Part shown: positions 20,237-63,574 of the stretch, one piece after another
How the letters are laid out: every line of letters starts with the position of its first letter
How positions within the stretch are numbered: the stretch's first letter is position 1
From: Lachnospiraceae bacterium
GTDB taxonomy: Bacteria; Bacillota; Clostridia; Lachnospirales; Lachnospiraceae
Assembly (NCBI GenBank): GCA_017431345.1
Contig: JAFRLH010000033.1
Coordinates: 1 to 64,000, forward strand
Length of the DNA: 64,000 bases
Direction of reading: 5' to 3'
The notes under the pieces: generated by a model
Told to the model about the DNA's origin: nothing
The model's input: the letters and a program-made list of their open reading frames with translations, nothing else
The model's database searches: none
Made by a program: the position numbers and the translations under genes

Positions 20237-20267
20237 AAGGGCAGTGCAGAGTCTTCGGAGAAGAATA

Positions 20268-21413
20268 ATGAAGGTTATTTCAGAAAAAGAAAAACAATAC
20301 ATCACGGTCGGTAATAAAAAGCTGGAACTCGGCTTTACCACCGGAAGCTGTGCCGCCGCTGCCGCAAAGGGAGCGGCGCAGCTTTTGCTTGCCGGGAAAG
20401 CACCGGAAAGCGTGGACTTGCTGACACCGGAAGGGATCCTCCTGAAGCTGCGGCCGGAATTCTGCCGGCTGACGGAAGACGGCGCCGCAGTCTGCGGCAT
20501 CAAAAAGCATGCCGGCGATGACCCGGATATTACAGATGGAATGACGGTGGCAGTGAAGCTTGTTCCGCGAGGCGGATCAAAAGCGGATGCCGGTATCCGG
20601 CTCACTGCCGGCGATGGCGTCGGTACAGTCACTCTCCCCGGGCTTGAACAGCCGGTCGGTGCCCCGGCAATCAATAAAGTGCCGCGGCAGATGATTCGGG
20701 CAGCAGTGAGAGAAGCTTTTGAGGAAGCCGGGATCGGACGCGAAGAGATCAGCCTGACAGCGGAAATCTCTGTGCCCGGCGGCACAGAGATCGCCCAAAA
20801 AACATTTAATCCGAAGCTCGGGATCGTAGGCGGTATTTCGATCCTTGGCACCAGCGGAATCGTGAAACCCATGAGCAGAAAGGCACTGAAGGATACGATC
20901 AGCCTGGAACTGGATGTAAAAGCTGCCGCCGGAACCGACCCGCTGATCCTGTGCCCGGGAAATTACGGCACAGCATTTCTGAAGGCGGAATACGGAATCG
21001 ATCCGGAAGGCGCAGTCAGATACGGAAACTATTTCGGCTATGTGCTCGATGAAGCCGCAGCAAAAGGATTTAAGAATATCCTGATCGTGAGTCATATCGG
21101 GAAGCTAATCAAAGTCGCGGGCGGGATCATGAATACGCATTCCCGCGCAGCGGACTGCCGGATGGAGATCATGGCAGCGCATGCGCTGCTGGCAGGAGCG
21201 GATGCGGCGCAGGCAAGGAAGATCCTCTCCTGCGTGACGACCGACGCAGCGCTGGAATTGCTGGAGGAGTACGGCATGACGGAAGCGGTCATGCGGTCGC
21301 TTGCCGAAAAGATCAGGGAAGTGATCACTGCCAGAGCCGGAGCGGACAGCAGAATTGCTGCTGTTGCTTTTGCACGCGACAGGGTATTGTTTAAGACAGA
21401 CAGCATTGTGTAA
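20268..21413 (+). CDS. cbiD: cobalt-precorrin-5B C1-methyltransferase
   Basis: A 381-residue CbiD of the anaerobic cobalamin pathway; it methylates C1 of the corrin ring, and with CbiG it removes the two-carbon fragment and contracts the ring. The N-terminal LGFTTGSCAAAAAKGA and the mid motif PKLGIVGGISILGTSGIV are family hallmarks. The start at 20268 follows GGAGAAG. It is separated from cbiF-cbiA by an opposing operon and an amylase, so this pathway is split here. Confidence 0.9.
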   Translation: MKVISEKEKQYITVGNKKLELGFTTGSCAAAAAKGAAQLLLAGKAPESVDLLTPEGILLKLRPEFCRLTEDGAAVCGIKKHAGDDPDITDGMTVAVKLVPRGGSKADAGIRLTAGDGVGTVTLPGLEQPVGAPAINKVPRQMIRAAVREAFEEAGIGREEISLTAEISVPGGTEIAQKTFNPKLGIVGGISILGTSGIVKPMSRKALKDTISLELDVKAAAGTDPLILCPGNYGTAFLKAEYGIDPEGAVRYGNYFGYVLDEAAAKGFKNILIVSHIGKLIKVAGGIMNTHSRAADCRMEIMAAHALLAGADAAQARKILSCVTTDAALELLEEYGMTEAVMRSLAEKIREVITARAGADSRIAAVAFARDRVLFKTDSIV

Positions 21414-21433
21414 ATAGAATCAGTATGAGAAGA

Positions 21434-21620
21434 AAAGTGACCCGGATTGGAGAATATGGCAATCCGGGTCACTTTTTTGCTGCTTGAAGCTTGTAAACGA
21501 GAGATAAAAGTGACCTGAATCGAGTGAAGAGAAGAAACAGGTCATTTATCTTGCTGTCTGGAGCATGTGAAAGGAAGAAAAAGTGACCCTGATTCGAATA
21601 AAGAAAGAATCAGGTCACTT
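21434..21620. repeat. three tandem terminator-like hairpins
   Basis: T1 (21434-21478) pairs AAGTGACCCGGATTG with CAATCCGGGTCACTT and has a T-run, so it is the cbiD terminator. T2 (21506-21547) pairs AAAGTGACCTG with CAGGTCATTT. T3 (21579-21620) pairs AAGTGACCCTGATTC with GAATCAGGTCACTT, one bulge. The period is about 72-73 bp and the spacers are also similar. Stems differ between units but remain paired. Confidence 0.75.
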
Positions 21621-21683
21621 CGGAAGAGATCTGTGTGTAATTTCATATGTCAGGCAGCGGGATCAGTATTTCATGCGGCAGAA

Positions 21684-23294
21684 TCAGTACTTCCTGATCC
21701 TTGCGATAAATCTTGAAAAGTCATCATACTTCCACAGCACCGGCGTGGGATACAGCGGGTTCGCTTCCTTCATCGCCCATTTGATGATCTGATCGACATC
21801 CTCGTCTTTGATCATGTCGACATATTCCGGAATGCCCATCTTTTCCTTCATCTTCTCGATCCAGCGGATGAACTTCTCGGCTTTTTCCGCATCGTTCCTG
21901 CCATCCATGCCGCAGACTTCCGCCAGTTCGGCAAGCGGCTTGTCAACAACATGGCCGAATTCGCGCATGACATGCGGCAGAAGGATGGACATCGCCAGCC
22001 CGTGCGGAACGCCGTACAGACCGCCCAGCGTATGGCCGATCGCGTGCACATATCCCACACATCCTCTGGTGAAGGCGCGGCCGGCGAAGAACGCGGCTTT
22101 CTGCATGTTCTGGCGGGCTTTGAGATTCGATCCGTCTTTATACGCTTTGTAGAGATTTTTGTAGATCAGGCGGACAGCGCGTTTTGCGAGAACATTTTCC
22201 AGTTTTGTATTATAGGTATGGTTCGTATAGGCTTCGACCGCGTGGCAGAGAGCGTCCATACCGGTCGTGGCAGTAATGAACGGCGGCAGTCCGACAGTCA
22301 GTTCCGGGTCCAGCACGGCATATTGCGGAATGATGATGGGATCATTAATGGAAGCTTTGCGGTGTGTTGCGGAATCCGTTATAACTGCGGCCACCGTTGT
22401 CTCTGAACCGGTGCCGGCGGTTGTCGGAATGGCGAAGAAAAGCGGTACTCTTTTGTGGACTTTCAGAAGTCCCTGGAGCTGCCGTACACTTTTCTTCGGA
22501 TGCACGGCTTTTGCACCGATCGCTTTCGCACAGTCCATCGGCGAGCCGCCGCCCATGGCGACAAGCGCCTGGCAGCCGTTTTCTTTGTAGATCTTATAGC
22601 CGGCTTCCACATCATCGCTCGTGGGATTCGGGGAGACATCGGAGAACAGCGCGTACTGAATGCCTTCTTCCTCGAGCGCGGAAAGAAGTCTGTCCGGCAG
22701 CCCGATCTTCATCAGGCCGTTATCCGTGACCACAAGCACTTTCCCGGCGCCTTTTTCCTTCAGCATCGCCGGAAGCTTTTTGATGGATCCCGGACCCTCG
22801 ATATACTCCGGCATCCTGTAACCGAGAAAATAGTTTGCGCCTACCATCACTGTCTGGAACGTTTTGCAGTACAGTGTATACATGGTGACATCCTCCTTTT
22901 CGTTTGTTTTCGGTTCTTCATAGCTTATTTTAATTGCCGATTTCGGACATTTGGAAGCGCAGACGCCGCAGCGGAAGCACTTCTCCTGATCGATCGTGAA
23001 GGGGGATTTCCGTTCGCCGTAAGGCGCGCCGGCCTTGCAGACGCGGCTGCAGAGGGAGCAGCCGATGCAGGCTTCGGGATCAATGGTCACGGATGCGATC
23101 TTTTTCTGATCCAGATCCGTAAAAATGGAATCTGTGGGACAGACGTCGGCACACTGTCCGCAGCCGACACATTTTTCCGGATCAATACTGTATTTCGACT
23201 TGACTTCATCCACCGGTTCCGGTGCGCCGAACAGGCATTCATAAGCGCATGCTCCGCAGCCGACGCAGCGGTTCGTATCTATTCTGTATGCCAT
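21684..23294 (-). CDS. polyferredoxin - iron-containing alcohol dehydrogenase fusion
   Basis: A 536-residue fusion. Residues 1-137 hold four CxxCxxCxxxC motifs (CVGCGACAYEC, CVGCGQCADVC, CIGCSLCSRVC, CFRCGVCASKC), so four [4Fe-4S] clusters. Residues 138-536 are a full-length group III alcohol dehydrogenase: GGGSPMDCAKAIG for NAD(P), and iron ligands in GMDALCHAVEAY and HAIGHTLGGLYGVPHG. Junction codons carry a perfect internal ribosome site (AAAGGAGG before the ATG at 22883), so a separate 399-residue dehydrogenase could also be made. It is the third gene of the AOR operon; I infer reduction of aldehydes to alcohols with electrons passed through the clusters, or the reverse. The start at 23294 follows AGGAGG. 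Confidence 0.85.
   Translation of the reverse strand: MAYRIDTNRCVGCGACAYECLFGAPEPVDEVKSKYSIDPEKCVGCGQCADVCPTDSIFTDLDQKKIASVTIDPEACIGCSLCSRVCKAGAPYGERKSPFTIDQEKCFRCGVCASKCPKSAIKISYEEPKTNEKEDVTMYTLYCKTFQTVMVGANYFLGYRMPEYIEGPGSIKKLPAMLKEKGAGKVLVVTDNGLMKIGLPDRLLSALEEEGIQYALFSDVSPNPTSDDVEAGYKIYKENGCQALVAMGGGSPMDCAKAIGAKAVHPKKSVRQLQGLLKVHKRVPLFFAIPTTAGTGSETTVAAVITDSATHRKASINDPIIIPQYAVLDPELTVGLPPFITATTGMDALCHAVEAYTNHTYNTKLENVLAKRAVRLIYKNLYKAYKDGSNLKARQNMQKAAFFAGRAFTRGCVGYVHAIGHTLGGLYGVPHGLAMSILLPHVMREFGHVVDKPLAELAEVCGMDGRNDAEKAEKFIRWIEKMKEKMGIPEYVDMIKDEDVDQIIKWAMKEANPLYPTPVLWKYDDFSRFIARIRKY
22883..22895 (-). promoter_or_regulatory. internal ribosome-binding site inside the fusion gene
   Basis: On the minus strand AAAGGAGG is followed 6-7 bases later by ATG at 22883, exactly where the ferredoxin part ends and the alcohol dehydrogenase begins. 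The frame is open through it. Confidence 0.65.
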
Positions 23295-23296
23295 GG

Positions 23297-23584
23297 TCAG
23301 CCTCCTGATGCAGGGGAGAGGAGCCAGATTTCGTCGCCGTCTTTCAGTTGCTGCCGTTTTTTCGAGCATCTGTCTCCGTTGATGTAAACGATCGCGTCGC
23401 TGAAGGAGAGCGGCGCAGGATGGCGAAGGCCGGGCTTTGCCGCCAGTCGGTCTTTATAGATCAGCTCGGCTCTGTCATTCAGCAGTGCGAAGATATCGGA
23501 GAGCCTGTCGGCCTGCACCTGCTCGTTTGCAAGATGGGTGTCGATCCGCAGCACGCCGAAAAGCTTCACGGTCACTTCAGCCAT
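23297..23584 (-). CDS. MoaD/ThiS-like small sulfur carrier protein
   Basis: A 95-residue ubiquitin-fold protein with N-terminal TVKLFGVLR and C-terminal LLSPASGG. The terminal Gly-Gly is the site adenylated and thiocarboxylated in MoaD, which supplies dithiolene sulfur to molybdopterin. It overlaps the AOR gene by 8 bases and is followed by the fusion gene 2 bases later. Its GGA GGC codons for the terminal Gly-Gly are also the AGGAGG ribosome site of the next gene. The context suggests that it serves the pterin cofactor of the AOR. It is slightly longer than ordinary MoaD (about 80). Confidence 0.82.
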   Translation of the reverse strand: MAEVTVKLFGVLRIDTHLANEQVQADRLSDIFALLNDRAELIYKDRLAAKPGLRHPAPLSFSDAIVYINGDRCSKKRQQLKDGDEIWLLSPASGG

Positions 23585-25514
23585 TCTTCCTCGCCTCCTT
23601 TACGATCTGGTCATAATAGCCCCTGTCGATGTCCACGCCGAATCGCTTCAGCGTGCTGTAAGTCGGGATCCCGTCCTTCCAGCCGCGGGCTCTGTTGTAA
23701 TCTTTCAGAAGACGTTCCAGCGGCACCTTCGTCCTGGGATCGTTCGGATCCTGGGGTGTTTTGGTCAGTCTCTTCGGCAGGACGTCCGCGTTCGCTTTCT
23801 GTCCCAGGATGATATTGCAGATCCGCTCCATGTTGTAACCGTGGGAACCTGCCGTCAGCGCTGTGCCGACGGTCGCATGGAAATCACAGACGTAATTCAG
23901 TGCATATGTATGCTGGATCAGCGGGATATTGATGTGTGCCAGGCGTGTGAACTTGTTGAGGATGTTGACGACCGGTCCGAAATAAGGGAACACCTTCAGG
24001 ATCATCTGTGTCAGCGGCCAGTTCGGTTTCTCCACCAGAAATCCAGGGAAAACAGCGTAGCTCGTGAAGAGACAGGAGCCGCAGGCGGAGATCGCTTCCA
24101 TCAGGTTCTGGAACATGATCGTCATGGCGGCTTTGCCGTGGGGCGTAAGGGAATCGACATCCAGCCCAAGTCCTTCCAGAACGACCATGTAGCCTGCGTT
24201 CAGATGGCACCCGCCGCGGTTCGCGGTCGCATAGCCGAGGCCCTGGCCGACGGCATGCCGGGGTTCATAAGCAGCAAGCTCCATGCCTTTGGCATGAATG
24301 GCGAATTCCTTCCCGCCGAACTTTTCACTCATCCGTTTTGTGCCGTTCGCAAGATCGTCCCCGATGCCTTCGCGGAAAGCGATCTGGCGGAAGACTTCGG
24401 AGATATTGTCGGTCTTTCCGAATTCCAGACCGCAGTCCCACATCCCTTTTTCATTCAGCTCCATGGCAAAGGCAATGGAACCGGCAGAGGAGATCGCATC
24501 CATACCGAGTTCGTCGAGTTCATAGTTCCAGCGGAGGATCATTTCGATATCGTCGTTCATGATGTTCGGACCGAGCAGGCCGAGCGTCTCGAGCTCCGGG
24601 CCTTTGACGGTCTTTCCGTCCACTTTGACAGATCTTCCGCAGCGGATCACGCAGGTGGAGCAGGCTGAATTGGAGACCAGATGTTTTTCCGCCAGTTCTT
24701 CGCCGGAGACTTTCTCAAATCCTTTGAATCTGCCCGCCGAGAAATTCTTTGTCGCGAGAATGCTGTGCGCCTGCATGGGCGCGATCAGCCCGGCCGTCCC
24801 GAGCTTCGGGAGCTGTCTTCCCGTGAGCGGATGCGTCTGCAGCGTCTTCACCCATTTCTTATTAAATTTCTTCAGCTTGCGGGGATGCGCGATCTTACAT
24901 TTCTTCGTACCCTTAACGGTCACCGCTTTCAGATTCTTGTCCCCGAATACAGCGCCGACGCCGCCTCTGCCGGAGGTGCGTTCGCCGGAAAAAACGCAGG
25001 AGTAAAGGACTTTGTTCTCGCCGGCGGGGCCGATCACCAGTTTGGCAGTATCTTTCGGCAGCTTCTCCTGCGCCTCGGAGATCTTCATCCCCCGGAGACC
25101 GGAGGCGTCTTCGAACGTTACATCATTTTCGGTGATGTGAACGGTGGTGGGACGATCCGCCCGGCCGGTGATGATGCATGCGTCATATCCGGCGCGTTTC
25201 AGTGTCAGGCCGAAATCACCTCCGCAGTTCGAAGAAGTGATGATGCCGGTAAGCGGTGAAATGGTGGAAATGTTGAATCTGGAAGTGTTCGGACATCCCG
25301 ATCCGGTCAGCGGACCGGTGGTGACCACGATCCAGTTGTCCGCATCAAAAGCCTTCATGCCGGGCCGGATATGGGAGAAAAGAATATCCGCCGCCATGAT
25401 CTTGCCGCCGATGGTACGCTTCCTGTCAGTGTCTGTCCACGGATATAGCTCGTGTGTTCCCGAAGACAGATCGATCTTCAGTACCTTTCCCATGTATCCA
25501 TACAGTTCAGACAT
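23577..25514 (-). CDS. aor: aldehyde:ferredoxin oxidoreductase family enzyme
   Basis: A 645-residue AOR-family enzyme with tungsto- or molybdo-bispterin and one [4Fe-4S] cluster. Seen: the N-terminal YMGKVLKIDLSSG, the GPLTGSGCPNTSRF and RGGVGAVFGDKNLKAV segments of the pterin domain, the cluster motif CSTCVIRC with a late Cys in SACGSCLF. It oxidises aldehydes to acids with ferredoxin, or reduces acids when ferredoxin is very low potential. It heads a three-gene operon with a MoaD-like protein and a ferredoxin-ADH fusion. The substrate is not deducible. The start follows GAGGTGAT. Confidence 0.88.
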   Translation of the reverse strand: MSELYGYMGKVLKIDLSSGTHELYPWTDTDRKRTIGGKIMAADILFSHIRPGMKAFDADNWIVVTTGPLTGSGCPNTSRFNISTISPLTGIITSSNCGGDFGLTLKRAGYDACIITGRADRPTTVHITENDVTFEDASGLRGMKISEAQEKLPKDTAKLVIGPAGENKVLYSCVFSGERTSGRGGVGAVFGDKNLKAVTVKGTKKCKIAHPRKLKKFNKKWVKTLQTHPLTGRQLPKLGTAGLIAPMQAHSILATKNFSAGRFKGFEKVSGEELAEKHLVSNSACSTCVIRCGRSVKVDGKTVKGPELETLGLLGPNIMNDDIEMILRWNYELDELGMDAISSAGSIAFAMELNEKGMWDCGLEFGKTDNISEVFRQIAFREGIGDDLANGTKRMSEKFGGKEFAIHAKGMELAAYEPRHAVGQGLGYATANRGGCHLNAGYMVVLEGLGLDVDSLTPHGKAAMTIMFQNLMEAISACGSCLFTSYAVFPGFLVEKPNWPLTQMILKVFPYFGPVVNILNKFTRLAHINIPLIQHTYALNYVCDFHATVGTALTAGSHGYNMERICNIILGQKANADVLPKRLTKTPQDPNDPRTKVPLERLLKDYNRARGWKDGIPTYSTLKRFGVDIDRGYYDQIVKEARKNG

Positions 25515-25742
25515 AATGCATCACCTCGTTTCGGAACAGATAACGGCAGTTTCTTTGATTTTGCTCTGTTTGCATCCTGATTTTATCATATTTCTATGAA
25601 ACTGTATATCTTTTTCGGTCTAAAATCGTGACAAAATCATCTGCAGGAAGTAGTATAATAGGCAGGTGAGGAAAGAAACAAAATGACAGCTGCATAGAGG
25701 ACGGATCTCACGTCCCGTTACAAAGACAGGAGATCGGAAAAT

Positions 25743-27212
25743 ATGACAAACGAAACAATGATGCAGTATTTTGAATGGTATCTTCCGAATGACGGGCTCT
25801 GGTGGAAACGCTGCGCCGCGAAGGCGGAGAGCCTGCACGATCTCGGGATCACCCAGGTATGGCTTCCCCCTGCTTATAAGGGAACCTGTCAGGACGATGT
25901 CGGCTACGGCGTCTATGACATGTACGATCTGGGGGAATTTGACCAGAAGGGTACCGTGCGCACAAAATACGGAACGAAAGAAGAATATATTGAAGCGATA
26001 AAGGCATTGCAGAATACCGGGATCAAGGTGTTCGCAGATATCGTCCTGAACCACCGGATGGGCGGCGATGAGACGGAAGAGATCACGGCTGTGACGGACT
26101 CGCCGGAGGACAGGAATCAGCAGATCGGCGGAGAACAGAAAGTAAAAGTCTGGTCGAAATTCACATTCCCGGGCAGACACGGGAAGTACAGTGATTTCAC
26201 CTGGAACCATACGCATTTCACCGGCACGGACTGGGATGAGAATTCCAAAGCCGAGGATATGATCTTCCGGTTTACGGGCAAACACTGGGAGCCGGACGTC
26301 GATCCCGAAAGAGGCAACTTCGACTATCTGATGGGTATGAACGTGGACATGGATAATCCCGAAGTCATCCGGGAGACAGCGAAATGGCTCTTATGGTATG
26401 TCAATGAGACCGGTGTGGACGGTCTGCGGCTGGATGCCGTAAAGCATATCAGTTTCCTTTTCTACAGGGATCTGCTGGCCGGGCTCCGCAGGGATTCAGG
26501 GAAAGCGTTCCCTGCAGTCGGAGAGTACTGGAGCGGCGAGATCGACAGACTGAAATATTACCTGGACATGGTCGAGAATGAAATGTCATTGTTCGACGTC
26601 GCGCTGCATTACAACTTTTATCATGCTTCCTGCAGCAATGACGAATACAGCATGAAGACCATTTTTGACAATACGCTCGTGAAGGAACGGCCGGACAAAG
26701 CGGTCACCTTCGTCGACAATCACGATACGCAGTACGGGCAGAGCCTGCAGTCTTTCGTGGAAGACTGGTTCAAACAGCCTGCTTATGCGATGATCCTGCT
26801 GCGGCAGGACGGCATTCCCTGCGTTTTCTATACGGATTACTATGGCAATCCGGCACAGAACAGGCCGCTGGTACCGAATCTCGGAAAACTGATCAAATTA
26901 AGGAGCAGATACGCCTACGGCGAGCAGGAGGATTACCTGGATGACGACCATGTGATCGGCTGGGTGCGCCGCGGCGATGAGGAACATCCGGGTTCCGGCG
27001 TCGCAGTCGTTCTTTCCAACGGAGAAGCCGGATCGAAGCGCATGGAGATGGGAACCGCTTTTGCGGGAAAGGAATTCCATGACGCGCTGGGAATCTGCCC
27101 GGATCCCGTGCTGATCGGGGAAGACGGATTCGGGGAATTCGGTACGGAAGGCAGGAGTGTGTCCGTGTGGGTGCTGCCGGATGCGTTTGAAGACTTAATC
27201 GTCAACGAGTGA
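25743..27212 (+). CDS. amyA: cytoplasmic alpha-amylase (GH13)
   Basis: A 489-residue GH13 amylase, subfamily 5-like, without a signal peptide, so intracellular. The order is FEWYLPNDG at the start, then FADIVLNHRMGG (region I), GLRLDAVKH with nucleophile Asp (II), VGEYWSGE with acid Glu (III) and FVDNHDTQ (IV). It probably hydrolyses internal glycogen or imported maltodextrins. RBS AGGAG. It is divergent from the AOR operon across a 228-bp region with a TATAAT at 25654-25659. Confidence 0.9.
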   Translation: MTNETMMQYFEWYLPNDGLWWKRCAAKAESLHDLGITQVWLPPAYKGTCQDDVGYGVYDMYDLGEFDQKGTVRTKYGTKEEYIEAIKALQNTGIKVFADIVLNHRMGGDETEEITAVTDSPEDRNQQIGGEQKVKVWSKFTFPGRHGKYSDFTWNHTHFTGTDWDENSKAEDMIFRFTGKHWEPDVDPERGNFDYLMGMNVDMDNPEVIRETAKWLLWYVNETGVDGLRLDAVKHISFLFYRDLLAGLRRDSGKAFPAVGEYWSGEIDRLKYYLDMVENEMSLFDVALHYNFYHASCSNDEYSMKTIFDNTLVKERPDKAVTFVDNHDTQYGQSLQSFVEDWFKQPAYAMILLRQDGIPCVFYTDYYGNPAQNRPLVPNLGKLIKLRSRYAYGEQEDYLDDDHVIGWVRRGDEEHPGSGVAVVLSNGEAGSKRMEMGTAFAGKEFHDALGICPDPVLIGEDGFGEFGTEGRSVSVWVLPDAFEDLIVNE

Positions 27213-61666: not shown

Positions 61667-63574
61667 AAGAAGCTGCTCCCATTTTTCCATCAGCTCCATG
61701 AGTTCCTCCTGGAGCTTTTCTTTTTCAGAATTCAGTTCCATGAGCCGGCTGACATTCGTAAATACTTCTTCCTGTGTGAGCAGTTCGTCTATTTCGGCGG
61801 AACGCGTCTCCAGCTTTTCGATGGACGCTTCCGTCTTTTTTATATCGTTCTCATGCTTGCGCTTCCTGGCCTGCTCCTCTTTCTGCTGTTTCCAGTCGAG
61901 TGCGCCGGCAGCAGATGCGGTTTCAGGCTGCGCTGCTTTGCCGGCGGATGCTGCATCCGGCTTTGCCATGTTCTCCTTCTTTTCGAGATAGTAATCATAA
62001 TTGCCGAGATACTCGGTGAAATGTTCTCCCGAAAGTTCCAGGATACGGGTGCAGGTCTGGTTGACGAAATATCTGTCATGGGAGACGTACAGCAGCGTGC
62101 CTTCATAGGAAGAAAGCGCATTCTCCAGCACTTCCTTGGAGGGCATGTCCAGATGGTTCGTCGGCTCATCGAGAATCAGGAAATTGTAATCCGACAGGAT
62201 CAGCTTGCACAGCGCCAGCCGTCCCCTCTCTCCGCCGGAGAGCGCGGAGACCGGTTTGAATACGTCGTCTCCGGTGAAAAGGAAGGAGGCCAGCGTATTC
62301 CGGATCGTGGTATTGGTCAGGTTCGGATAGGCATCGGAGATTTCCTCGAACAGCGTATTTTCATCCGTCAGCAGCTGCTGCTCCTGGTCGTAGTAGCCGA
62401 TCTCTACTTTCGAACCCAGGGTAAGCGTTCCGGCGTCAGCGTCCGCAAGGCCGGTGATGATCTTCAAAAGCGTAGTCTTTCCGGTTCCGTTGTCGCCGAT
62501 GATCGCCACGCGCTCGCCGCGACGGATATGGATATTTACATCGGAAAAGAGTGTGTGGTCTCCGAAGGCTTTTGACAGTCCTTCGATCACCAGGACATCT
62601 TTCCCGCTTTCTTCGTGCGCGGAAAGCTTCAATACCATCTTGTCGGCAGGGCCGGCCGGTTTGTCCAGACGCTTCACCTTATCCAGCATCTTCTGCCGGC
62701 TTTCAGCGCGTTTGATCGACTTTTCACGGTTGAAAGAACGCAGCTTCTCGATCACTTCTTCCTGGTGTCTGATCATCTGGCGCTGGTTCATGTATGCTTT
62801 CAGGGCGTCTTCCCGCTGGCGTTTCTTCAGCGCGGCGTAGGCGGAGTAATTGCCTTTGTATTCAGTGACTTTCCCGCCGTCGACTTCGATTACTTTATCC
62901 GCTATACGGTCCAGGAAATATCTGTCATGCGCGACGACAATCACAGCGCCCGGATAAGCGCGGAGATATCCCTCCAGCCACTGGATGGAGCTGATGTCCA
63001 GATGGTTCGTGGGCTCGTCCAGCAGGATGCAGTCAGGCCTTGTCAGAAGGAGCTTTGCCAGCGCAACACGGGTTTTCTGGCCGCCGGAAAGCTTTCCGCA
63101 GCGCTTGTCAAATTCGTCTTCGGAGAACCCCATGCCTTTGAGGACGCCGGTCATCTCGCTTCTTGCAGCGTAGCCGTCCTTCAGCTCAAATTCGTGATTC
63201 AGGCGGCTGTATTCCTCCATCATGGAGGAGAGCGCGGCGCCTTCAGCCCCTTTCATCCGCTGCTCAAGGGCACGGATCGAATCCTCCATGGCGAGCACAT
63301 CCGCCTTGGCTTTGCGGATCTCTTCATAGATGGAACAGTCATCCGACAGCCCCTGATGCTGGGAGAGATAACCGATCGTCTTTCCTCTGGAGATGACGAC
63401 TTCACCGGCGTCGGCAGAGAGTTCGCCCATGATGATGCGCAGAAGCGTGGTCTTGCCGGCCCCGTTGCTGCCGACGATCGCCGCCTTGTCTTTATCGTCT
63501 ATCCGAAAAGAAGCCTCTGAAAAAAGCGTCTCTCCGTCAAAAGATTTTTCAAGATGATTCACAGATAATATCAT
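61655..63574 (-). CDS. ABC-F family ATPase (YdiF/Uup type)
   Basis: A 639-residue soluble protein with two ABC domains: GSNGAGKTT and LSGGQKTRVALAKLLL (first), GDNGTGKTT and LSGGERGRLALCKLIL (second). The P-site linker (about 225-320, rich in Lys, Arg and Glu) and a C-terminal coiled-coil extension (about 540-639) are present. ABC-F proteins bind the ribosomal E site and help with stalled or inhibited ribosomes. Nothing here identifies it as an antibiotic resistance member. It is convergent with mntP. Confidence 0.9.
   Translation of the reverse strand: MILSVNHLEKSFDGETLFSEASFRIDDKDKAAIVGSNGAGKTTLLRIIMGELSADAGEVVISRGKTIGYLSQHQGLSDDCSIYEEIRKAKADVLAMEDSIRALEQRMKGAEGAALSSMMEEYSRLNHEFELKDGYAARSEMTGVLKGMGFSEDEFDKRCGKLSGGQKTRVALAKLLLTRPDCILLDEPTNHLDISSIQWLEGYLRAYPGAVIVVAHDRYFLDRIADKVIEVDGGKVTEYKGNYSAYAALKKRQREDALKAYMNQRQMIRHQEEVIEKLRSFNREKSIKRAESRQKMLDKVKRLDKPAGPADKMVLKLSAHEESGKDVLVIEGLSKAFGDHTLFSDVNIHIRRGERVAIIGDNGTGKTTLLKIITGLADADAGTLTLGSKVEIGYYDQEQQLLTDENTLFEEISDAYPNLTNTTIRNTLASFLFTGDDVFKPVSALSGGERGRLALCKLILSDYNFLILDEPTNHLDMPSKEVLENALSSYEGTLLYVSHDRYFVNQTCTRILELSGEHFTEYLGNYDYYLEKKENMAKPDAASAGKAAQPETASAAGALDWKQQKEEQARKRKHENDIKKTEASIEKLETRSAEIDELLTQEEVFTNVSRLMELNSEKEKLQEELMELMEKWEQLLSEE

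Follow-up and report, generated by a model that had tools for sequence, protein, structure and literature searches.

The 64,000-nucleotide stretch analysed here (hereafter the window), positions 1 to 64,000 of contig JAFRLH010000033.1 in the Lachnospiraceae bacterium assembly GCA_017431345.1, encodes on its minus strand a three-gene operon, worL, worX and worS-adh in that order of reading, in which the electron-transfer subunit (WorS) of a predicted aldehyde oxidoreductase (AOR) of the tungsten-dependent oxidoreductase (WOR) family continues, in one open reading frame (ORF), into a complete iron-type alcohol dehydrogenase (ADH). The interpretation we favour, and consider probable, is that of a Class II-like tungsten-type aldehyde:ferredoxin oxidoreductase whose WorS carries an iron ADH of the nicotinamide adenine dinucleotide (NAD) type, the two enzymes sharing an aldehyde and working preferentially in the oxidative, detoxifying direction. 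The features on which this is built are the following.

23577..25514, minus strand: worL, AOR/WOR large subunit, 645 amino acids (Pfam AFOR_N/AFOR_C, 1aor alignment)
23297..23584, minus strand: worX, MoaD/ThiS-like, 95 amino acids, C-terminal Gly-Gly (Pfam ThiS, sequence)
21684..23294, minus strand: worS-adh fusion, 536 amino acids (Pfam; same fused frame in 10 other sequences)
22917..23294, minus strand: WorS-like part, residues 1-126 (four Fer4 stretches, 16 cluster cysteines)
22884..22916, minus strand: linker, residues 127-137 (low pairwise identity among fused proteins)
22881..22897, minus strand: candidate internal ribosome-binding site and ATG for a free ADH (AGGAGG 22897-22892, ATG 22883-22881)
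21684..22883, minus strand: iron-type (group III) ADH part, residues 138-536 (Pfam, motifs, 8zrl alignment)

The fused protein and its parts

An earlier note on this DNA had described an AOR enzyme of 645 residues whose gene overlaps that of a MoaD-like protein ending in Gly-Gly, followed after two bases by four [4Fe-4S] motifs fused to a full iron-type ADH, and this description was confirmed by the ORFs and their Pfam domains. In the fusion, four Fer4 stretches are succeeded by matches to Fe-ADH (167.8 bits) and ADH_Fe_C (150.4 bits). The cluster cysteines of the WorS part fall into four motifs and are all invariant in the 30 WorS that were aligned, out of 63 found, and the part ends near where stand-alone WorS end, that is, at the start of the linker. 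When modelled, the WorS part is double-ferredoxin-like (mean predicted local distance difference test score, pLDDT, 88). Across seven fused proteins the mean pairwise identity is 0.41 in the linker, 0.71 in WorS and 0.82 in the ADH core.

The ADH part displays the motifs GGGSPMDCAKA, TTAGTGSETT, D..CH, VHAIGH and PHG, and its closest solved chain is the NAD-dependent methanol dehydrogenase 8zrl (E 1.4e-70). With both domains, the GGGS nucleotide motif and the D-H-H-H metal ligands in place, it is predicted to be a group III iron-type ADH; the ligand positions are those that we take to hold for FucO-like ADHs, located here on the 8zrl alignment, and the conserved Asp of its VTD presumably signifies a preference for NAD. 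In Pfam this part matches the Fe-ADH families alone, with no flavin or cluster domain recognised.

Recurrence of the fusion

A scan of the genome collection for WorL returned 79 loci, mostly from metagenome-assembled genomes (MAGs) of ruminant and gut Clostridia. A WorS-like gene was recognised at 63 of them, as a separate ORF on the WorL strand in 56 and on the other strand in L093 (lengths 124-154 amino acids), and in six it is fused to the ADH (L024, L025, L026, L028, L034 and L096). Together with four more genomes of the same family and the window itself, this amounts to 11 fused genes. The usual gene set among the relatives is WorL-WorX-WorS with a separate WorS, relative to which the ADH fusion is the derived part. 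No ADH directly follows a separate WorS at any of the 56 loci, 44 of which have at least 1200 nt of contig past WorS while the contigs of the other 12 end sooner; the only other ADH match above 150 bits in the 79 loci, at L053, is 32% identical and lies ~4 kb downstream. The WorL of L024 is 99% identical to that of the window. Within the window's genus the full-length fusion is present in 3 of 11 genomes (the window, L024 and L025; L104 and L105 are, by their length, the contigs of the latter two and were counted once).

At the level of the family, 81 of 397 sampled genomes matched at E <= 1e-80. Loci were drawn for 25 of these 81, and WorL stands beside the ADH in five, all of them fused: the window, L123/L147 and L124/L148 with four clusters, and L126/L150 and L128/L152 with two. 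The two clusters of the fused WorS of L150 (7786-9237) and L152 (3640-5238) align with the C-terminal pair among the four clusters of L147 and L148, and these proteins look as if half of the polyferredoxin had been lost. A class-wide sample of 391 genomes at the strict threshold of E <= 1e-120 yielded the window's own gene alone. Of 295 genomes sampled from the order, 17 had a WorL relative at E <= 1e-60. The fused layout is not unique: the gene order, which the earlier note had proposed to look for in clostridial genomes, recurs there, and the notion that it might be peculiar to this genome is refuted by the 11 fused genes. An assembly or frameshift artefact was considered and rejected as unlikely, since MAGs that were assembled separately have the same open frame.

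Exchange of partner with aldehyde dehydrogenase

We examined 28 loci of the ADH (L106-L109 and L123-L146). Four have WorL in their flanks, and all four are fused. The remaining 24 carry the ADH as a free-standing gene, with an aldehyde dehydrogenase (ALDH) within ~1.5 kb in 21 and neither partner in three. At L149, L151 and L153 the ALDH matches Pfam Aldedh, and for that of L151 the best NCBIfam model is benzaldehyde dehydrogenase, below its cut-off. The WOR thus seems, from gene neighbourhoods, to take the place of an ALDH beside this ADH. Such an exchange argues for a shared aldehyde rather than for electron flow into the ADH, and it is the strongest evidence pointing to an aldehyde held in common by WorL and the ADH.

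A candidate internal start for the ADH

In the window, the stretch AGGAGG lies 8 nt ahead of an in-frame ATG at the start of the ADH part, a feature missed by the earlier note. Close to where the ADH part begins, all 11 fused genes have an ATG in frame and, ahead of it, a stretch resembling a Shine-Dalgarno; from this ATG it is 4 to 10 codons to a conserved Tyr/Trp-Cys. To our knowledge such a site at the ADH start is new, no report of it having been found. The linker residues vary and shift register against the motif (AAG GAG GAT GTC ACC ATG in the window, AGG GGA GGG ATC ACG ATG in L096), and that the motif stays while the residues change suggests that it is the nucleotides that are kept. 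Few other ATGs of the same ORF are preceded by an equally strong site: 0 of 40 in the window, 0 of 38 in L024, 0 of 43 in L025, 1 of 49 in L026, 0 of 53 in L028, 1 of 48 in L034, 0 of 36 in L096, 1 of 16 in L123, 0 of 45 in L124, 1 of 48 in L126 (where the ATG at -10 was used, that at -20 being weaker) and 2 of 38 in L128. Combined over one gene per lineage, which omits L024, L025 and either L026 or L028, this rank test gives p 9.1e-6 (1.6e-5 with L026 replacing L028), the tested ATG having been chosen as the nearest to the ADH start after the window had been seen. Synonymous-codon resampling gives 0.009-0.157 over the eight lineages and a combined p of 2.6e-4. The predicted pairing energies in the window are -12.8 kcal/mol for the internal site, -10.3 for worS, -14.0 for worX and -16.6 for worL. 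The same gene probably yields both the fusion and a free ADH.

Evolution of the fusion

Trees were built from 34 of 88 aligned rows for WorL and from 24 of 37 for the ADH; a second ADH tree went without L024 and L028 but took in three additional ADHs. The WorL tree places the 11 fused genes in two positions, the window's group and L147/L148 with L150/L152. A single fused clade was rejected for WorL (p-AU, from the approximately unbiased test, 1.3e-10) and the fused ADHs as one clade by themselves were weakly rejected (p-AU 0.014), with the reservation that the tested groups were named after the first trees had been seen and the p-values are not fully prospective. The fused ADHs form one group that also takes in two free ADHs, those of L149 and L151 (support 78/87 and 98/96 in the two trees). 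Two types of WorS part occur among the fused genes, with 29-39% identity between one type and the other. Since the WorL trees reject one clade and related ADHs are found on two WorS types, the fusion either had more than one origin or was transferred; related ADHs would so have been joined to different WOR systems, or the ADH part would have moved between WORs.

Within the window's group, the unfused L027 and L029, which have a WorS without ADH, group with six fused genes at 100/100, and L034 joins outside them (90/91). A clade of the seven fused genes of this group without L027 and L029 was rejected (p-AU 1.3e-7), from which it follows that the ADH was probably lost in those two; L034 may represent a separate gain. 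More distant Fe-ADH genes also occur unfused beside WorL, upstream of it in L156 and L157, and in L158 directly after a WorX-sized gene that ends in GG without a Pfam match, the WorS there lying upstream of WorL. The ADHs of these three loci fall outside the fused ADH group.

WorL, WorX and the cofactor

WorL matches AFOR_N at 212.9 bits and AFOR_C at 343.3 bits, and its closest solved chain is the Pyrococcus furiosus (Pf) AOR, 1aor (E 1.3e-110). C285, C288, C292 and C481 align with four Pf cysteines, which we take to be the cluster ligands. T240, E309, Y416 and H437 align, by hand count on the alignment, with Pf Thr243, Glu313, Tyr427 and His448, the residues named in PMC13328260. In the 88 aligned WorL (four short rows, L097, L100, L101 and L102, were left out), E309, Y416, H437 and the four cysteines are identical in every row, and position 240 is occupied by T in 65 rows and by S in 23. 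WorL retains the ligand residues seen in WORs that oxidise aldehydes. By its AFOR domains and its pterin and [4Fe-4S] ligands it is assigned to the AOR/WOR family, and it would be expected to hold a tungsten (or molybdenum) bis-pterin and one [4Fe-4S] cluster. At L097 (2342-4302) WorL is split across two overlapping frames with identity carrying over, a frameshift or an assembly error.

The metal may be tungsten, to which the Tup-like genes of the genome would point indirectly: in the genome of the window, contig C54 carries genes resembling TupABC and two resembling MoeA. Among loci of at least 9 kb (56 of the 79), a TupA-like gene occurs in 36, a ThiF-like gene in 46, a MoeA-like gene in 40 and a MogA-like gene in 44, and tblastn places Tup-like and/or pterin-cofactor genes near seven of the ten other fused genes (L026, L028, L034, L096, L147, L148 and L150), with a ThiF gene near the fused gene of L152. 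In the 64-kb window, all that was found of these genes is a remote similarity of an ABC transporter to TupC, at 62033-63562.

WorX, which ends in ...SPASGG, scores 25.4 bits against Pfam ThiS, just above the cut-off of 22.5, and 26.7 bits against moaD_arch, below the cut-off of 49.5. Its ubiquitin-like match and C-terminal Gly-Gly place it, by sequence, in the MoaD/ThiS family of putative sulfur carriers, and it may serve the maturation of the pterin cofactor. The earlier note had proposed a dedicated sulfur carrier to mature the pterin; a MoaD-like protein is indeed present in the operon, but it is not peculiar to this locus, as Iyer et al. 2006 (PMC1779556) had already reported MoaD next to AOR and WorX beside WOR genes is described in PMC13328260.

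Surroundings of the operon

The worX ATG overlaps the 3' end of worL by 8 bases, and worS-adh starts 2 bases past the worX stop, the Gly-Gly codons of worX, GGA GGC, forming part of its Shine-Dalgarno. The mechanically called ORF of worS-adh extends upstream to 23369; it is the start at 23294 that has the Shine-Dalgarno. Both neighbours of the operon, CbiD (20244-21413) and an alpha-amylase (25743-27212), are on the opposite strand. Between the convergent cbiD and worS-adh, at 21433-21620, there are three partly palindromic repeats of AAAAGTGACC..., 73 bp start-to-start. Rfam gave nothing at the gathering score over 21000-26000 of the window, repeats included, a terminator scan of 21430-21620 gave no terminator-like match, and a promoter scan gave weak consensus sites only.

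The window's genome has two further AORs. One (L154, 2295-7980, contig C28) lies in a run of genes for a Fer4 small subunit, the AFOR protein, a ThiS-like protein ending in GG, a [2Fe-2S] thioredoxin-like protein, a Nuo51-like protein and a Fer2/Fer4 protein, which is the layout of an electron-bifurcating Class IV WOR. The other (L155, 4659-7282, contig C54) is accompanied by a 132-residue cysteine-rich gene and is near the Tup-like and MoeA-like genes. A gene resembling GlpA/type-2 glycerol-3-phosphate oxidase, with flavin adenine dinucleotide (FAD), recurs beside WOR operons (L026 3507-5869, L028, L030, L034 2384-4684, L096 and L155 13689-14999). In all but L155 it is accompanied by a pyridine-nucleotide oxidoreductase gene, as one ORF with a BFD [2Fe-2S] domain in L034, and in the window's genome it adjoins the Tup-like and MoeA genes. 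It is a possible metabolic partner of these WORs.

Discussion

The association of an AOR and an ADH that could link acid, aldehyde and alcohol, as the earlier note envisaged, gains support from the recurrent fusions, from the ADH-ALDH pairing of free relatives and from the known AOR-ADH pathway. In the scheme that we propose, WorL would oxidise an aldehyde to the acid, with electrons passing from the pterin metal to the WorL cluster, on to the WorS clusters and then to ferredoxin, which is the likely carrier since the operon encodes no other acceptor subunit. The ADH would interconvert the alcohol and the same aldehyde with NAD(H), and the tether would shorten the path of a toxic intermediate and pull whichever step is unfavourable. 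The net reaction, reversible, would be alcohol + NAD+ + oxidised ferredoxin + H2O = acid + NADH + reduced ferredoxin. With acid/aldehyde potentials of -520 to -560 mV (PMC10816221), the oxidation of aldehyde with ferredoxin as acceptor is favourable and able to draw along an NAD-linked oxidation of the alcohol. For the situation in vivo we favour the oxidative, detoxifying direction. For Pelobacter oxidising ethanol, PMC4275255 reports NAD-linked ADH activity together with raised tungsten-dependent acetaldehyde:ferredoxin oxidoreductases.

Group III ADHs are dimers or larger, and a free ADH translated from the internal start would let oligomers mix tethered and free subunits and so avoid crowding. 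It is therefore conceivable, although we would put it at slightly less than an even prospect, that two products are made by design, the fusion and the free ADH, giving an ADH oligomer with a few tethered subunits docked on the aldehyde:ferredoxin oxidoreductase. This would constitute a natural metabolon leading from alcohol through aldehyde to acid, with NADH and ferredoxin as separate outputs, and it would have evolved at least twice, by placing the same ADH subfamily on different polyferredoxin subunits.

The same module could run mainly in reverse, WorL reducing acids with reduced ferredoxin and the tethered ADH making the alcohol with NADH as an electron sink. ALDH in practice only oxidises aldehyde to acid, and the pairing of free ADH relatives with it in 21 of 24 loci speaks against this direction. 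There is precedent for reversal: the AOR-ADH pathway is shown to operate so in C. autoethanogenum (PMC12727526), and with the Thermoanaerobacter AOR the removal of acetaldehyde by AdhE doubled acetate reduction (PMC10816221), just as removal of the aldehyde by the fused ADH would be expected to pull acid reduction. The authors of the latter work, however, interpret the weak activity on acids as indicating that aldehydes are removed by oxidation. On balance, we regard a mainly reductive role as unlikely, though a serious contender.

Less likely still is that the fused frame is of little consequence, the ADH being made mostly from the internal start and read-through being a tolerated by-product of lost stops. 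The ribosome-binding-site-like stretch in 11 of 11 fused genes would fit such a view, as would its predicted strength in the window relative to that of worS (-12.8 vs -10.3 kcal/mol) and the retention of WorS without ADH in L027 and L029. Yet none of the loci examined showed a stop codon separating worS from this ADH behind it (11 of 11 are fused), the ADH after the WorX-like gene of L158 lies outside the fused group and has its WorS upstream of WorL, and the frame is uninterrupted through linkers that have diverged, and with either type of WorS.

Last, the earlier note had suggested that the fusion could channel electrons between ferredoxin/AOR and NAD(P)/alcohol; the ferredoxin domain would then pass them straight to NAD(P) in the ADH domain. 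In iron-type ADHs the hydride goes straight from NAD(P)H to the carbonyl, or back, and on this family chemistry electron transfer into the ADH domain was rejected: the covalent joining of the two domains would suit it, but the ADH part matches Fe-ADH families only, without a flavin domain, and NAD-reducing WORs have a separate FAD or bifurcating module for the purpose (Class III WorN, Class IV WorABC; PMC13328260), which leaves this possibility hardly credible.

Returning to an oxidative WorL-ADH pair sharing an aldehyde, several observations weigh against that interpretation or parts of it. The fold search with the WorS part found its best matches in FwdF and RnfB, which are generic polyferredoxins, with no AorA chain of 8c0z among the 50 matches listed, and by sequence the small chain of the tungsten AOR entry 9mqx is reached at E 4e-6 only; given so weak a likeness to published WorS, the label rests on gene order and cluster count. 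The whole-fusion model has a mean pLDDT of 42 and was not used for geometry or channelling. The TupA and TupB of L026 score under their NCBIfam cut-offs (139.8 of 400 and 129.7 of 320), such that the metal may also be molybdenum, and the search for Tup and pterin-cofactor genes found none close to the operon, either in the window or in L024 and L025, the two relatives nearest to it. The ADH is dispensable, as L027 and L029 keep WorS without it. With regard to the internal start, single synonymous tests fall below 0.05 in only two of eight lineages, and the site could be a relic of a pre-fusion ADH gene; that it is found in both fusion backgrounds, although the linkers have diverged, speaks for its being used.

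The AOR/WOR class, the WorL-WorX-WorS set and the AOR-ADH pathway are already known, and the fusion is a recurrent variant on them. The nearest described systems are the ferredoxin-linked Class II WORs (PfASOR, CbGOR; Putumbaka et al. 2026, PMC13328260), which share one AFOR subunit, a four-cluster polyferredoxin, a WorX-like gene and the lack of an FAD subunit. WorL and a four-motif WorS occur here in one operon, as in that class; Class II enzymes, however, consist of two subunits only, with a stand-alone WorS without ADH, whereas here WorS carries a whole Fe-ADH at its C-terminus. Neither the FAD-binding WorN of Class III nor the bifurcating WorABC of Class IV is encoded in the three-gene operon. 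In the main text of PMC13328260, 'alcohol dehydrogenase' and 'ADH' do not occur and the single 'fused' concerns ModBC, its supplements being outside the search. The AOR-ADH pathway described for C. autoethanogenum, Thermoanaerobacter and P. furiosus (with AdhA) likewise consists of two reactions sharing an aldehyde, but its enzymes are reported as separate proteins, whereas here the ADH is joined to the electron subunit of the AOR. AorABC of Aromatoleum aromaticum, a nanowire-forming Class III enzyme, also has a large and a four-cluster small subunit; the C-terminus of the latter matters for assembly and its C-terminal helix builds the filament (PMC10413684). Here the small-subunit C-terminus holds the ADH instead of that helix, and the operon lacks an FAD subunit, such as the Aromatoleum enzyme has for NAD. 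The ADH-ALDH gene pairs of the same family (L149, L151, L153) similarly set a related ADH beside an aldehyde-to-acid enzyme, although their partner is ALDH and nothing is fused, in contrast to WorL and the fusion here. In AdhE an Fe-ADH is joined to a coenzyme A-acylating ALDH domain to which it is tied by the aldehyde passed on; the fusion resembles it in tying an Fe-ADH to an aldehyde-handling step, except that the partner is an AOR reached through WorS. We recognised no description of a WorS-ADH fusion in our literature search, which supplements and most subscription papers lay outside, and the words 'fusion' and 'fused' are absent from the review PMC12096430.

A physiological role has been assigned for 5 of 92 WOR clades (PMC13328260). 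Whether it was acquired repeatedly or handed from one WOR to another, the attached ADH indicates the metabolic partner of an uncharacterised WOR lineage, with the conversion of alcohol, NAD+ and ferredoxin to acid as its predicted reaction. If true, this would be a natural physical coupling of two steps of the AOR-ADH pathway, of relevance to the making of alcohols from acids, and a candidate case of metabolon stoichiometry tuned by internal translation initiation.

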